Below are positions 56,457 through 62,346 of a stretch of DNA of 62,346 bases, one piece after another. The stretch comes from Acidimicrobiia bacterium. GTDB lineage: Bacteria; Actinomycetota; Acidimicrobiia; Acidimicrobiales; AC-14. Where the stretch lies: contig JAHFUQ010000008.1 in NCBI GenBank assembly GCA_023265045.1, positions 1 through 62,346 on the forward strand, in the 5' to 3' direction. Numbering within the stretch: position 1 is the first letter of the stretch; every line of letters begins with the position of its first letter. A model generated the notes under the pieces. It was given only the letters and a program-made list of their open reading frames with translations, was not told the DNA's origin and made no database searches. Both the position numbers and the translations under genes were made by a program.

Positions 56457-58493
56457 ATGGATAGCGAGCACACCGGCGGCGGCGAGGCGCTCCTCAACGG
56501 GCTGAACCCGGCCCAGCGCGAGGCTGTCGTCAGCGAGGCCGCGCCGCTGTGCATCCTGGCCGGGGCGGGATCGGGCAAGACGCGGGTGCTGACCCGCCGC
56601 ATCGCGTGGCGCGTCCGCACCGGCGCCGCCGACCCGCGCCACGTGCTGGCGTTGACGTTCACGCGCCGGGCCGCGGGCGAGCTCGGCGCCCGGCTGGCGC
56701 AGCTCGGGGTGCGCGATCAGGTCGCCGCCGGCACGTTCCACTCGCTGGCCTACGCCCAGCTCAGGCGCCGCTGGGCCGAGCGTGGCGAGCGCGCGCCCGC
56801 GCTGCTCGACCGCAAGGTTCGCCTGATCGTGCCCCTCCTGCCCCGGCGGTCCGCGGCCGGCCCGGGGGCCCGGTGGGTGCAGCCGGGCGACGTGGCGTCC
56901 GAGATCGAATGGGCCAAGGCCCGCATGGTGCCTCCCGGGGCGTACGAAGCCGAGGCGGCGGCGGCGGGGCGGCGGCCGCCTCTCCCAGCTGCCGCGATCG
57001 CCCGCATCTACGACCGGTACGAAGACGAGAAGCGCAAGCGGGCCTTGGTCGACTTCGACGATCTGCTGCTGGCCTGCGCGGAGGCCATCGAGTCCGATCC
57101 CGAGTTCGCCGCCACCCAGCGGTGGCGCTTCCGCCACCTGTTCGTCGACGAGTTCCAAGACGTCAACCCGGCCCAGTTCCGCCTGCTCGAAGCGTGGCGG
57201 TCGGGCCGGGCCGACCTCTGTGTCGTCGGCGACCCCAACCAGGCCATCTACGCCTGGAACGGGGCCGACCCGACCATCCTCACCGGCTTCCCCGGCCGGT
57301 TTCGCGGCTCCAGCGTCGTCCACCTGGACGACAACTACCGCTCCACGCCTCAGGTGCTCGCCGTCGCCAACGTTGTCGTCGGCGGGCCCCACCGGCTGCG
57401 GGCGCACGAGCCCGACGGGCCGCTTCCGACCGTCTCCTCCTACCCCACTGACCGGGAGGAGGCAGTCGGAGTGGCCCGGGCCGTGCGGCGCCAGCACGGT
57501 GCGGGGCGGCCGTGGTCCGACCACGCCGTGCTGACCCGCACCCACGCGCAGCTCGTGCTCTTCGAGGAGGCGCTGCGAGCGGCCCGGATCCCGTTCCGGG
57601 TGCGCGGCTCGGCCCAATTCCTGAGCCAGCCCGAGGTGCGCGACGCCCTCGGCGAGCTCAAGCGCCGGCCACCCCACACGCCCCTGGCGGACGCCCTGCC
57701 CGACCTGCTCGAACTGGTCCGGGAGGCGCAGGGCGTGGCCAAAGACGGCGAGCCCGCGGAGCGCGTCGCCAACCTCGAGAGCCTGGCCCGCCTGGCGCGC
57801 GAGCACTTGGCCGCCGAGCCCGCCGCGTCGATGGCCGGCTTCCTGGCGTGGCTGGTCGCCGCCCTGCGGGGCGACGAGCCCGACACCGGCGCTGACGCCG
57901 TCGAGCTGGCGACGCTCCACGCCGCCAAGGGCCTGGAGTGGCCCATCGTGTTCGTGGCCGGTCTTGAACAGGGTTTGATCCCCATCGGCCACGCCGAGAC
58001 GCCCGAGGCCCGCGCCGAGGAGCGGCGGCTGCTCTACGTGGGCTTGACGCGGGCGCGGCGCGAGCTGCACTGCTCGTGGGCGGAGAAGCGCACGTTCGGC
58101 GCCCGCACCATGTCCCGCACCCCGTCGCCGTACCTTGAGCGCATCGAGGCGGCCGTCCAGGCCTTGGCCGAGGGCCGTCCCGTGCCCGACTGGCAGGAGC
58201 ACCTGGCCCACACCCGGGCCCAGTTGCGGGCCGCCAAGCCCCTTGGCGGGGCCCAGGTGGGCCGCAACGCAGACCCCAAGATGCTGGAGGCGCTCAAGAC
58301 GTGGCGGGCCGCCACCGCCCGGGCCTCGGGCGTCCCCGCCTACGTGGTGTTCCACGACACGACCCTCGCCGCCGTGGCCGAGGCCAAGCCGCGTGACCGG
58401 GCCGGCTTGCTGGCCCTCCCGGGAGTCGGTCCGGTCAAGGTCGAGCGCTACGGCGAGGCCCTGTTGTCCCTGGTGGCGCAGGCTGCGGGTTGA
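56457..58493 (+). CDS. uvrD2: UvrD2-type helicase with HRDC domain
   Basis: The 678-residue SF1A helicase has LNPAQREAV, Walker A AGAGSGKTRVLTRRI, DEFQDVNPAQ, GDPNQAIYAWNGAD, DDNYRST, the motif V/VI region (ATLHAAKGLEWPIVFVAGLEQGLIP, EERRLLYVGLTRARREL) and a C-terminal HRDC domain (ARASGVPAYVVFHDTTLAAVAEAKP to LPGVGPVKVERYG). This matches actinobacterial UvrD2. A CGTACC/GGTACG inverted repeat lies just upstream of the ATG. Confidence 0.92.
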   Translation: MDSEHTGGGEALLNGLNPAQREAVVSEAAPLCILAGAGSGKTRVLTRRIAWRVRTGAADPRHVLALTFTRRAAGELGARLAQLGVRDQVAAGTFHSLAYAQLRRRWAERGERAPALLDRKVRLIVPLLPRRSAAGPGARWVQPGDVASEIEWAKARMVPPGAYEAEAAAAGRRPPLPAAAIARIYDRYEDEKRKRALVDFDDLLLACAEAIESDPEFAATQRWRFRHLFVDEFQDVNPAQFRLLEAWRSGRADLCVVGDPNQAIYAWNGADPTILTGFPGRFRGSSVVHLDDNYRSTPQVLAVANVVVGGPHRLRAHEPDGPLPTVSSYPTDREEAVGVARAVRRQHGAGRPWSDHAVLTRTHAQLVLFEEALRAARIPFRVRGSAQFLSQPEVRDALGELKRRPPHTPLADALPDLLELVREAQGVAKDGEPAERVANLESLARLAREHLAAEPAASMAGFLAWLVAALRGDEPDTGADAVELATLHAAKGLEWPIVFVAGLEQGLIPIGHAETPEARAEERRLLYVGLTRARRELHCSWAEKRTFGARTMSRTPSPYLERIEAAVQALAEGRPVPDWQEHLAHTRAQLRAAKPLGGAQVGRNADPKMLEALKTWRAATARASGVPAYVVFHDTTLAAVAEAKPRDRAGLLALPGVGPVKVERYGEALLSLVAQAAG

Positions 58494-58899: not shown

Positions 58900-59676
58900 C
58901 TACGGGTCGAAGTCGATCACCATGGGGGCGTGGTCCGACGGCTGCTTGCCTTTGCGGGCGTTGCGATCGATGAGGGCGAAGGTGGCCCGCTCGGCCAGCG
59001 GTTTTGTCGCCAACGCCAGGTCGATGCGCAGGCCCCGGCCTTCGTGGAAATCGCCGGCCCGGTAGTCCCACCAGGAGTAGATGCCCGTCTCAGGGCGCAG
59101 CGTGCGAAACGTGTCCACCAGGCCCCAGTCGAGCAGCGCGCCCACCGCCTCCCGTTCCGGGGGGCTGACGTGGGTGGCGCCGTGGAGCTTGCTCGGGTCC
59201 CAGGCGTCGTCGTCGGTGGGGGCCACGTTGTAGTCACCGCAGACGATGAGCGGCTCATTGGGGTCGTAGGACGACTCGATGTGCCGGCGCAACCGCGCCA
59301 GCCACACCAACTTGGCCTCGTAGTGCTCGCTGCCGACGGAGCGCCCGTTGGGCACGTACACGCTGCCCACCCGCACCCCGCCGCACGTCGCCCACAGCAG
59401 GCGGGCCTCTACCACCTCGTCGTCGGCCTGGTCGGAGAACCCGGCCACCACGTCTTTCAGCCCCACCCGGCTGAGGATGGCCACGCCGTTCCACTGCCCC
59501 TGGCCGCAGTACACCGCCTCGTACCCCAACGTCTGGAACGCCATCGCCGGGAAGGCGCTGTCGGCCAGCTTGGTCTCCTGCATGCACAGAACGTCCGGCT
59601 CGGCGTACGCAAGCCACTCCTCGACGCGGGGCAGCCGGATCTTCAACGAGTTGACGTTCCATGTGGCGATGCGCAT
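58900..59676 (-). CDS. xth: Exodeoxyribonuclease III
   Basis: AP endonuclease in base-excision repair. About 258 residues from the ATG giving MRIATWNVNSLKIRLPRVEEW. Motifs: CMQETKL, YVPNG, CGDYNVAPTDDD, LRIDLAL and the closing SDHAPMVIDF with the catalytic Asp-His. An upstream start 13 codons earlier is less typical. Confidence 0.95.
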   Translation of the reverse strand: MRIATWNVNSLKIRLPRVEEWLAYAEPDVLCMQETKLADSAFPAMAFQTLGYEAVYCGQGQWNGVAILSRVGLKDVVAGFSDQADDEVVEARLLWATCGGVRVGSVYVPNGRSVGSEHYEAKLVWLARLRRHIESSYDPNEPLIVCGDYNVAPTDDDAWDPSKLHGATHVSPPEREAVGALLDWGLVDTFRTLRPETGIYSWWDYRAGDFHEGRGLRIDLALATKPLAERATFALIDRNARKGKQPSDHAPMVIDFDP

Positions 59677-59681
59677 CGGAC

Positions 59682-60353
59682 CTACGAGCCTAGAGGGATG
59701 GCAGTGACGCCCCACACGGCCGCGGCGGCGAGCGCGGCGGCCGCGACCACAAGGCAGAGCGACCCTGACCGGCCGGCGCCGAACACGGCGGCGAGGCCCG
59801 CCAGGACACCCGCCATCGCAACCAGCGAGAGGGCGAACACGGCCCGGCCCCGCTTGGCGCCCGACCGCCGGGCGTCGGACAGCTGGTGGATCGTCCGGCC
59901 CTCCAGGGTGCGGAGCACGGACGGGTCCGAGACCATCGCCTCCCTCGTCAACCCGTCGACGCCGCTCGACGCGTCGGGCGCGCGCCCGACCGACGCAGCC
60001 AGCGCCGCCAGCCGCGCCGCGGCGGCGACGTCGGCGTCGGCGACGGCCCGGTCAACGGCGGGGGTCGACGGGCCGGCCGCTCGTTCCCGGTCATAGTCGG
60101 CCTGGATCGCCGCCGTCCGGGCCTGGGCGGTGGCGGCGGCCTGCGCGTCGGAGACGATCTGCTGGACGGTCTCGCGCCCGTAGGCGTCCACGCTCATGCG
60201 GGCCGCGACGAACTGCGCCCGCTCGGCGTCCTTGCGCACCGTCATCTCGATGGTTCCCAGGACGGCGCCCAGCACGGCGGCGATCCCCAGCACGACGGCG
60301 AGCCCCTGACCCAGGCGGCCGCGGCCGATCGTGGCCGCCACTTCGACGTCCAT
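59682..60353 (-). CDS. Membrane protein with helical outer domain, paralogue A
   Basis: The 223-residue protein has one N-terminal helix (LAVVLGIAAVLGAVLGTI), an approximately 125-residue helical Ala-rich region, and two C-terminal helices (AVFALSLVAMAGVLAGLAAVF, CLVVAAAALAAAAVWGVTAI). The layout equals that of the preceding gene. ATG overlaps that gene's stop (TGATG). Function unknown. Confidence 0.7.
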   Translation of the reverse strand: MDVEVAATIGRGRLGQGLAVVLGIAAVLGAVLGTIEMTVRKDAERAQFVAARMSVDAYGRETVQQIVSDAQAAATAQARTAAIQADYDRERAAGPSTPAVDRAVADADVAAAARLAALAASVGRAPDASSGVDGLTREAMVSDPSVLRTLEGRTIHQLSDARRSGAKRGRAVFALSLVAMAGVLAGLAAVFGAGRSGSLCLVVAAAALAAAAVWGVTAIPLGS

Positions 60354-60991
60354 CAGAGCACGACCATCGCGAAGAGGGCGCCGGCGACCGCCGTGGCCAG
60401 GCATGCCGCGCCGCTGGCGAGCAAGCGGCGCCGCCTCGCGGGGAACACGCCGCTGAGCGCGCCACAGGCGAACGCCGCGCCGACGGGGATCGTCGCGGCC
60501 ATGAGGGCGATGGCCCGGTGGGCGGTTCGGTCGCCGACGGCCTGCCATCGGGGCGGGACGGGCGGACCGACCTTCGCCGATCCCCGCAGCTCGGCCAGGC
60601 GGCGGCCGGTGTCGAGTCCGGCAGAGGTGAGGTAGCCGGCCGACGTGGCCAGCGGCGAGCCTCCTGCGGCGAGGCGATCAGCGAGGGCAACCTCCTTCGC
60701 CGCCTCGGCCTGCACGGCAACCCGATCGGGCTCCGCCAGCCCCGCGCCGGCGGTGGCCAGCTCCTCGGCCCGCCACCGGGCGGCCGCCACCGCCAGGGCC
60801 TGCGGCGCCTCCTTCAGGTACAGCTCGTCCAGCCCGGCGCGGATGGCGTCGGCCTGCTCGAGCTGGCGGCGAACCGCCACCTGCCACGCGCCCGACGCCC
60901 TCGACGACGCCAGTGACGCGGCTGCCCCCACCACCGCCGCCACCACGGCCGCCGCCGCCAGGAGCAGCGCCGAGCTTTTCGTGCCGGCCAT
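60353..60991 (-). CDS. Membrane protein with helical outer domain, paralogue B
   Basis: The 212-residue protein has an N-terminal helix (ALLLAAAAVVAAVVGAAASLA), a helical middle (RRQLEQADAIRAGLDELYLKEAPQAL) and two C-terminal helices. Same arrangement as the following gene, pointing to a duplicated pair. Family unknown to me. Confidence 0.7.
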   Translation of the reverse strand: MAGTKSSALLLAAAAVVAAVVGAAASLASSRASGAWQVAVRRQLEQADAIRAGLDELYLKEAPQALAVAAARWRAEELATAGAGLAEPDRVAVQAEAAKEVALADRLAAGGSPLATSAGYLTSAGLDTGRRLAELRGSAKVGPPVPPRWQAVGDRTAHRAIALMAATIPVGAAFACGALSGVFPARRRRLLASGAACLATAVAGALFAMVVL

Positions 60992-61167
60992 CGACGGAAA
61001 CTCTAAGAGGCAGGCCCCCGGCGAGAGGGGCCGGGGTGGCAGGCCCCCGGCCTGAGCGCACAGCGACCGGCCCGGCCTGACCATCGCGACCGGACCACCG
61101 CCGCCCGGAGATCCCCAGCGCGCCCATCCGCCCGGCCCGGCGGGCTGAGCGCCGACGCCGGCGTTTC

Positions 61168-61203
61168 GAGGCAAAACCCACCGTTTTCCGGTGGATTTTG
61201 CCT
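61168..61203. terminator. Bidirectional hairpin terminator (copy 2)
   Basis: GAGGCAAAACCCACCG pairs with CGGTGGATTTTGCCT around TTTTC. It shares 18 bases on its left arm with the element at 58835, so this is a recurring terminator sequence. It lies just past the stop of the broken gene at 61209. The rest of the 60992-61208 gap shows nothing else. Confidence 0.7.
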
Positions 61204-61208
61204 AGGTC

Positions 61209-61984
61209 CTACCGGGCGCCGACCTCTTCGGGGGCCTTCTGGGGAACGTCGCCACCGCGCTCGCCTTGCGGCCGCCGACGCTTCCGGAGCCGCCGCCATC
61301 CGCCTGCGAGCGTAGCGGCCACGAGCGCGATCGACCCAAAGCCTTGCACCAAGGGATGGGTTGACGATGTGGCCCGACCACCGCCTGGTCTTGGCCGCGA
61401 AGCTCGCCTTCTCGGCGTTGACCGTTATCGTCGTCGTGTAGGTCTCGGCTGCCGCGCTGTCGTAGACATGACCTTCGACCATGGCGCGCCGGGATCACCA
61501 GCGTCAACGGGTGACGTCCGGTCTTGAGTGGGACCACGTCCCACTACCAGTGGATCGCCGGCTGGTCGAAGAACGAGCCCAGTTGGAAGTCCGGAGGGTC
61601 GACCCTGAAGTCGATGCCTCGGAGGAGGGCCTCTACCTCGCAGTGCAGCGGCTTGGTGACGACGATGGTGGGCGCCGGCGTGCTGACGACGGTGGTCGGG
61701 AAGCCGTCCTCACCGGCGGACGCCGTGACCCGCACCTGCGCGGCCTCCCCGACGACCATGTCCTGCTTTGGCGCGTAGGCGATCTTCGCGTGTTGGGCCA
61801 TCTCCTCGCACCGTGCCGCCCTCCCCCGATCCGACAAGGGGGACGTCGCAGGGGGGCTGGTCGTGGGTGTCGCAGTGGCGGACGCCGGCGACGTGGTCGG
61901 CGGCTCGGTAATCGGCGGCTCAGTGGTCGGCGGCGGCGGCGCCGCCGGGGGCGCACGCGCAGGCGCACCAGCGAGCCGAGGCAC
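61209..61984 (-). pseudogene. Surface protein with stop codon and two frameshifts
   Basis: A Pro/Thr-rich linker is followed by a beta domain (IAYAPKQDMVVGEAAQVRVTAS, VEALLRGIDFRVDPPDFQLGSFFDQPAIHW). Next comes a TAG where a residue is expected, then in the same frame WDVVPLKTGRHPLTLVIP, then a shifted frame (VEGHVYDSAAAETYTTTITVNAEK), and after a second shift a membrane helix (GSIALVAATLAGGWRRLRKRR) and a stop. The N-terminal signal is missing too. A dead membrane-anchored outer protein, unless the assembly is wrong. Confidence 0.7.
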
Positions 61985-62042: not shown

Positions 62043-62346
62043 GTGCCGCTGAACGCCGTCGTGTGGAGCGACTTCCTCTGACCGTGGTGCTACGTGGGCC
62101 TGGACCGGTCCGCCGCGCTACGGGAGCTGGGGGTGAGCGTCGTCACCCTCCCGCTCGAGATCCACCCTGAGATCCCGATCGGCGGGATCAGCCTCGAGGA
62201 ACGCTGGGGCGCCGGCTACCGCGAGGCGCTCGGAATGTACGCCCGCATCGAGGCGGAGTGCGCGGCGGCCGGGTTGCCGTTCACGCGGCCGGCCCACGTC
62301 CCGAACACCCGCCGGGCCTTGGAGACCGCGGAGTGGGCCCGCCACC
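62043..62346 (+). CDS. DsbA/FrnE-type oxidoreductase, candidate selenoprotein (UPWC), cut by edge
   Basis: From the GTG at 62043 the frame encodes VPLNAVVWSDFL, then TGA (62079-62081), then PWCYVGLDRSAALRELG. DsbA/FrnE relatives read WSDxxCPWCYxG at this point, so the TGA replaces the first active-site Cys. The rest is intact: LPLEIHPEIP, GLPFTRPAHVPNTRRALETAEWAR. A hairpin with a GG loop starts right after the TGA. The simplest reading is selenocysteine insertion. A base error (TGC or TGT read as TGA) is the main alternative. The gene is incomplete at the right edge. Confidence 0.75.
62082..62123 (+). promoter_or_regulatory. Candidate bacterial SECIS element
   Basis: Directly after the TGA, 9 bp (62082-62090 with 62115-62123, two G-U pairs) and then 7 bp (62094-62100 with 62107-62113, two G-U pairs) form a hairpin with a 3x1 internal loop and the apical loop TGGACC at 62101-62106. 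The loop lies 20-25 nt after the TGA and has GG in its second and third positions, as in E. coli fdhF (loop AGGUCU, 18-23 nt). High G+C raises the chance of random hairpins. Confidence 0.55.

Follow-up and report, generated by a model that had tools for sequence, protein, structure and literature searches.

Does the TGA near the end of a contig from an acidimicrobial bin close a reading frame, or does it encode selenocysteine (Sec)? The window, that is, the whole stretch of DNA that was analyzed, is an entire contig (G000:C153) of 62,346 bases. A frame on its forward strand starts with GTG at 62043 and has TGA (62079 to 62081) as its 13th codon. It reads VPLNAVVWSDFL-U-PWCYVGLDRSAALREL, with a translation that opens VPLNAVVWSDFL, passes through UPWC and YVGLDRSAAL, and goes on to LEIHPEIP. 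Past the TGA, no stop occurs before the contig end, and positions 62043 to 62346 hold the first 101 codons. The contig ends inside the open frame and so holds only roughly half of the gene.

Read with C in place of U, the fragment matched the Pfam DSBA family (PF01323) with an E value of 1e-9, above the cut-off. We found that the TGA sits at the first Cys of a CPWC motif, which becomes UPWC, and that the second Cys is encoded by TGC at 62088 to 62090 (forward strand), an invariant column in alignment A3. The sequence-only reading had placed the TGA on this redox motif, which is correct, and had called it the resolving position. The word "resolving" needs correcting because the first Cys of the motif is the attacking one in DsbA-family enzymes. 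The predicted Sec is therefore the N-terminal, nucleophilic residue, and the resolving position is that of the TGC codon.

The model of a full-length orthologue (L011) had a mean pLDDT of 95 and placed the U/C at residue 11, just where a helix of residues 12 to 26 begins. By sequence search, the PDB structures nearest to L011 were those of D. radiodurans FrnE (drFrnE; E = 7e-15) and SCO1869 (E = 1e-11). The same two proteins came out on top in a fold search with the model, with a TM score to the query of about 0.86. The likeness to DsbA and FrnE noticed in the letters was thus borne out by both sequence and fold: the protein has a DsbA-type thioredoxin fold, an inserted helical domain, and a site of the CPWC/CPFC type in which the first Cys is replaced by the predicted Sec. 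In the alignment, this Sec falls on the first Cys of the drFrnE CPWC motif (residues 22 to 25; PMC8945050). drFrnE (DR_0659; PDB 5cnw and 5co3) and SCO1869 (3gl5) share with the window clade the fold, the place of the CPWC motif, and the lack of room for a signal peptide, but they have Cys where the clade has Sec. The fold search also showed a DsbA-type fold in common with 2-hydroxychromene-2-carboxylate isomerase and kappa-class GST. Those enzymes have a Ser at this site and use glutathione, whereas the window clade retains a redox-type U/C-P-W-C. None of the proteins tried reached the cut-off of any NCBIfam model. Weak C-terminal similarity linked them to the Rcas_1661 family (seleno)lipoprotein (NF041057), and we rejected membership in that family because the score was 20 bits and the cut-off is 190.

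If the gene were decaying, the TGA could be a normal stop created by a point mutation; formally it is a stop codon, and the contig does truncate the gene. We found, however, that the same TGA occurs in orthologues from at least seven other genomes of the same family or order (G003, G005, G007, G034, G063, G098, and G141; loci L010, L011, L012, L014, L188/L137, L190, and L193/L093); a search for further homologues with TGA or U at this site had been proposed in the sequence-only reading. Their proteins are 57 to 84% identical to L011 and stay open for about 190 codons past the TGA. G001, G016, and other genomes carry a Cys form (TGC at L013 and L015). Over 88 codons downstream, the window differs from L010, L011, and L012 at 14 to 15 first, 13 to 16 second, and 35 to 36 third codon positions. 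This clustering at third positions, together with a frame that is open to the contig end, agrees with the earlier statement that the coding sequence is intact on both sides of the TGA, and we consider a pseudogene very unlikely. Translation could also restart downstream, for example, at GTG 62094, from which a table-11 open reading frame does run, and would then give a shorter protein without UPWC. That product would have no need of the upstream WSD[FY]L and the PWC, which vary little or not at all in the clade; the chance of such a restart appears negligible.

If the TGA is instead a Sec codon, SelB carrying Sec-tRNA(Sec) would bind a hairpin downstream and insert Sec at UGA 62079 to 62081. 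We found a SECIS-like hairpin on the forward strand at 62094 to 62113, with a 7-bp stem (62094 to 62100 paired with 62107 to 62113) and the apical loop UGGACC (62101 to 62106). All 7 pairs form in each of the eight Sec orthologues of the clade, at positions 16 to 22 and 29 to 35 counted from the T of TGA, and the loop reads UGGAYC. A hairpin with a GG loop had been predicted from the letters and is there; it had been said to begin right after the codon, but the conserved stem begins only at 62094. An outer 9-bp helix (62082 to 62090 with 62115 to 62123, forward strand) is confined to the window, with a z score of −3.3 there compared with −0.67, −0.01, and −0.15 in three relatives. As the relatives are without it, we set it aside as a part of the SECIS element. 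Within the clade, pair 18/33 (62096/62111) is G-C in the window and L012 and C-G in the others, a change at two synonymous sites. Because only this pair differs, in 2 of the 7 rows, and 24 of 500 shuffles do as well, this covariation is weak alone. Among the Cys members of the window clade, nine keep 2 to 6 of the 7 pairs, and the nearest, L013, keeps 7 of 7.

We then drew on a wider set of loci. A scan of about 85,000 genomes with a 35-base pattern (W-[ST]-D-[FY]-x-TGA-P-W-C-[YC]-[VI]-G) gave 91 loci, many of them in Acidimicrobiia and others in Myxococcota and Chloroflexota. The Myxococcota matches include cultured Corallococcus, Archangium, Myxococcus, and Pyxidicoccus. The window clade, with the motif UPWCYVGLDRSALL, is a smaller actinobacterial one made up of metagenome-assembled genomes (MAGs), several of them apparently from soil. 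A further TGA clade has the motif UPWCH (L208 to L213, family f59), and a single locus (L206) has UPFC. On plasmids, tblastn found only relatives annotated with Cys, at less than 60% identity.

In 74 distinct sequences from the other UPWC clades, the stem lies at positions 17 to 24 and 28 to 35, with 91% of cells paired. We counted 100 doubly changed cells in these sequences, compared with 36.6 in shuffles (matched in 0 of 500) and 59 in the best slid register; the covariation score was 0.437, and the best slid register reached 0.203. Column 21, the wobble position of a Gly codon, alternates between G and C together with column 31, the first base of a Leu or Val codon. Paired columns sum to 51 in the window clade and to 52 in the others, and we rejected one stem model for all UPWC clades. 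The hairpin of the UPWCH clade (L208 to L213) fits neither of the two registers. Checked across relatives in this way, the hairpin is conserved, covaries, and decays in most Cys relatives. These data also bear on a sequencing or assembly error that hides a true TGC or TGT. The same-family relative G001 does have TGC here, but the TGA recurs in seven other independent assemblies, and the SECIS-like hairpin tracks it. We therefore put the likelihood of an error close to nil.

All four genes named for a genome search by the sequence-only reading, selA, selB, selC (tRNA-Sec), and selD, are present in the bin (G000; 4.3 Mb in 323 contigs, 85% complete, 5.9% contaminated). selB (C235:1851-2912) adjoins selA (C235:652-1791), selD lies on C67 and scored above the cut-off, and tRNA-Sec with the anticodon TCA (UCA) is found twice, on contigs C92 and C102 (L228 and L229). 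We also found an FdhA-type formate dehydrogenase gene (L226; G000:C106:14800-19000) with a TGA at the canonical Sec site (C106:15852; QARIUHSSTVPG) and a GUCCCCGGUCUGGGGAC hairpin downstream. Thus, Sec decoding is present in the bin and, on like evidence, is used elsewhere in it. Over 1 kb, the identity between the contigs that carry tRNA-Sec is about 87%, and two related organisms probably share the bin. Given this and the 5.9% contamination, the window contig possibly belongs to an organism closely related to that of the main genome. As a separate observation, the selD matches in G035, G042, and G033 (L083 to L085) have one in-frame TGA each and are probable Sec forms of SelD.

The inserted residue is not readable from sequence alone, and genome-wide recoding or near-cognate readthrough could place Cys, Trp, or Gly at the UGA. 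However, TGA is the ordinary stop of a UvrD-like helicase gene within the window (56457 to 58493), the bin has complete Sec machinery as well as a Sec formate dehydrogenase of the classical type, and the TGA form is almost entirely confined to genomes with selA. We found selA in 17 of 18 TGA genomes versus 2 of 10 Cys genomes of the clade (Fisher P = 1.2e-4, uncorrected for kinship). The one TGA genome counted as lacking selA, G005, has tRNA-Sec and selD, and its assembly is in 630 contigs; a partial selA match below the cut-off was counted as present in G063, and an unconfirmed TGA site in G142 (L205) was excluded. We regard insertion of another residue as highly improbable. The locus combines an in-frame TGA aligned with the Cys of homologues, a conserved stem-loop just downstream with G in its small apical loop, Sec machinery in the genome, and a PF01323 domain in whose CxxC motif U takes the place of the first Cys. 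On these sequence comparisons, we are highly confident that this bacterial gene truly encodes a selenoprotein of the DsbA-like UxxC kind (FrnE, COG2761 type; we take COG2761 to be the FrnE group).

How Sec and Cys have been exchanged in this family can be followed in part. On a quick tree that is midpoint rooted and has several weakly supported forks, only three changes are needed to account for the Sec/Cys label, and within the window clade the Cys rows fall inside groups of Sec rows. This nesting fits Sec loss. In G001, L013 (1534 to 1578) has the Cys codon TGC with the complete SECIS-like hairpin. This hairpin is possibly a relic left by a recent change from TGA to TGC, or else the state from which the opposite change would start. 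The apparent link between Sec/Cys exchange and selA loss is, as judged from these genomes, new here.

We also found an xthA-like exonuclease III gene (58900 to 59715, reverse strand; PF03372, E = 7e-32) about 2.3 kb from the oxidoreductase gene and in the opposite orientation. Open reading frames on the reverse strand between the two, at 59682 to 61984, had no Pfam match. Of the 19 clade loci tested, 14 have an exonuclease III gene nearby, in Sec and Cys forms both, and in several (L012, L013, and L093) it is divergent and adjacent. From this neighborhood, we infer that the two enzymes may be functionally linked. One could go further and combine these observations into a single account: a previously unlisted soil actinobacterial Sec-FrnE clade whose SECIS, with its different register, arose or was remodeled separately, in which Sec gave way to Cys more than once as the machinery was lost, with the G001 hairpin as a relic and the enzyme possibly working jointly with exonuclease III in oxidative damage. 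We hold this combination only tentatively and think it rather doubtful that all of its parts are right.

The product would be an enzyme of roughly 200 residues. It is probably cytoplasmic, since the stretch before the active site, about 10 residues, is too short for a signal peptide. By analogy with the Cys enzymes, a substrate disulfide would be attacked by the selenolate at the N terminus of helix α1, the Cys of UPWC would resolve the intermediate, and a cellular thiol system would reduce the Se-S bond again. A C-terminal CX4C recycles drFrnE, and some FrnE homologues are without it (PMC8945050). No drFrnE-type C-terminal CX4C was found in the full-length orthologue L011. It is speculation that a third Cys, invariant at column 71 of A3, might replace it in recycling. 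Sensitivity to cadmium and diamide is a trait of drFrnE mutants (PMC8945050), and therefore a role in cytoplasmic thiol stress is our likeliest guess. Sec insertion itself, the reductase direction, the recycling partner, and the role in thiol or oxidative stress are all inferred.

The sequence-only reading knew of no described Sec form of this subfamily in this kind of bacterium. DsbA-like UxxC selenoproteins of COG2761 had, in fact, already been described in Sargasso Sea data in 2005 (PMC1088965), and the DsbA 1 and DsbA 2 selenoproteins followed from GOS in 2008 (PMC2398784). Four DsbA-like selenoprotein sequences were found in sequenced bacterial genomes in 2006 (PMC1794560), and a 2026 review lists "DsbA-like protein form 1" (PF01323) (PMC13188914). 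The gene thus adds to a kind known since 2005, and the phenomenon is not new. With these proteins it shares the PF01323 fold, U for the first Cys of CxxC, a downstream SECIS-like hairpin, and widespread Cys homologues. The window clade differs from the Sargasso and GOS forms, to which we likened it by their published description, in that it consists of actinobacterial MAGs. Its stem register is one position off that of the UPWC forms in other Acidimicrobiia, Myxococcota, and Chloroflexota. A literature search on FrnE selenoproteins and on Acidimicrobiia selenoproteins found nothing on point. What appears to be new here, from the sequences compared, is the soil actinobacterial clade with its different SECIS register.

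Standard gene callers end such genes at the TGA. The function of the DsbA-like selenoprotein group is largely uncharacterized (PMC13188914), and our analysis adds to this group one Sec enzyme with good support and a survey that counts 91 loci across three phyla. Cultured myxobacteria with a UPWC gene make a direct test possible. L013 of G001, with its Cys codon and intact hairpin, may be a snapshot of the replacement of Sec by Cys.
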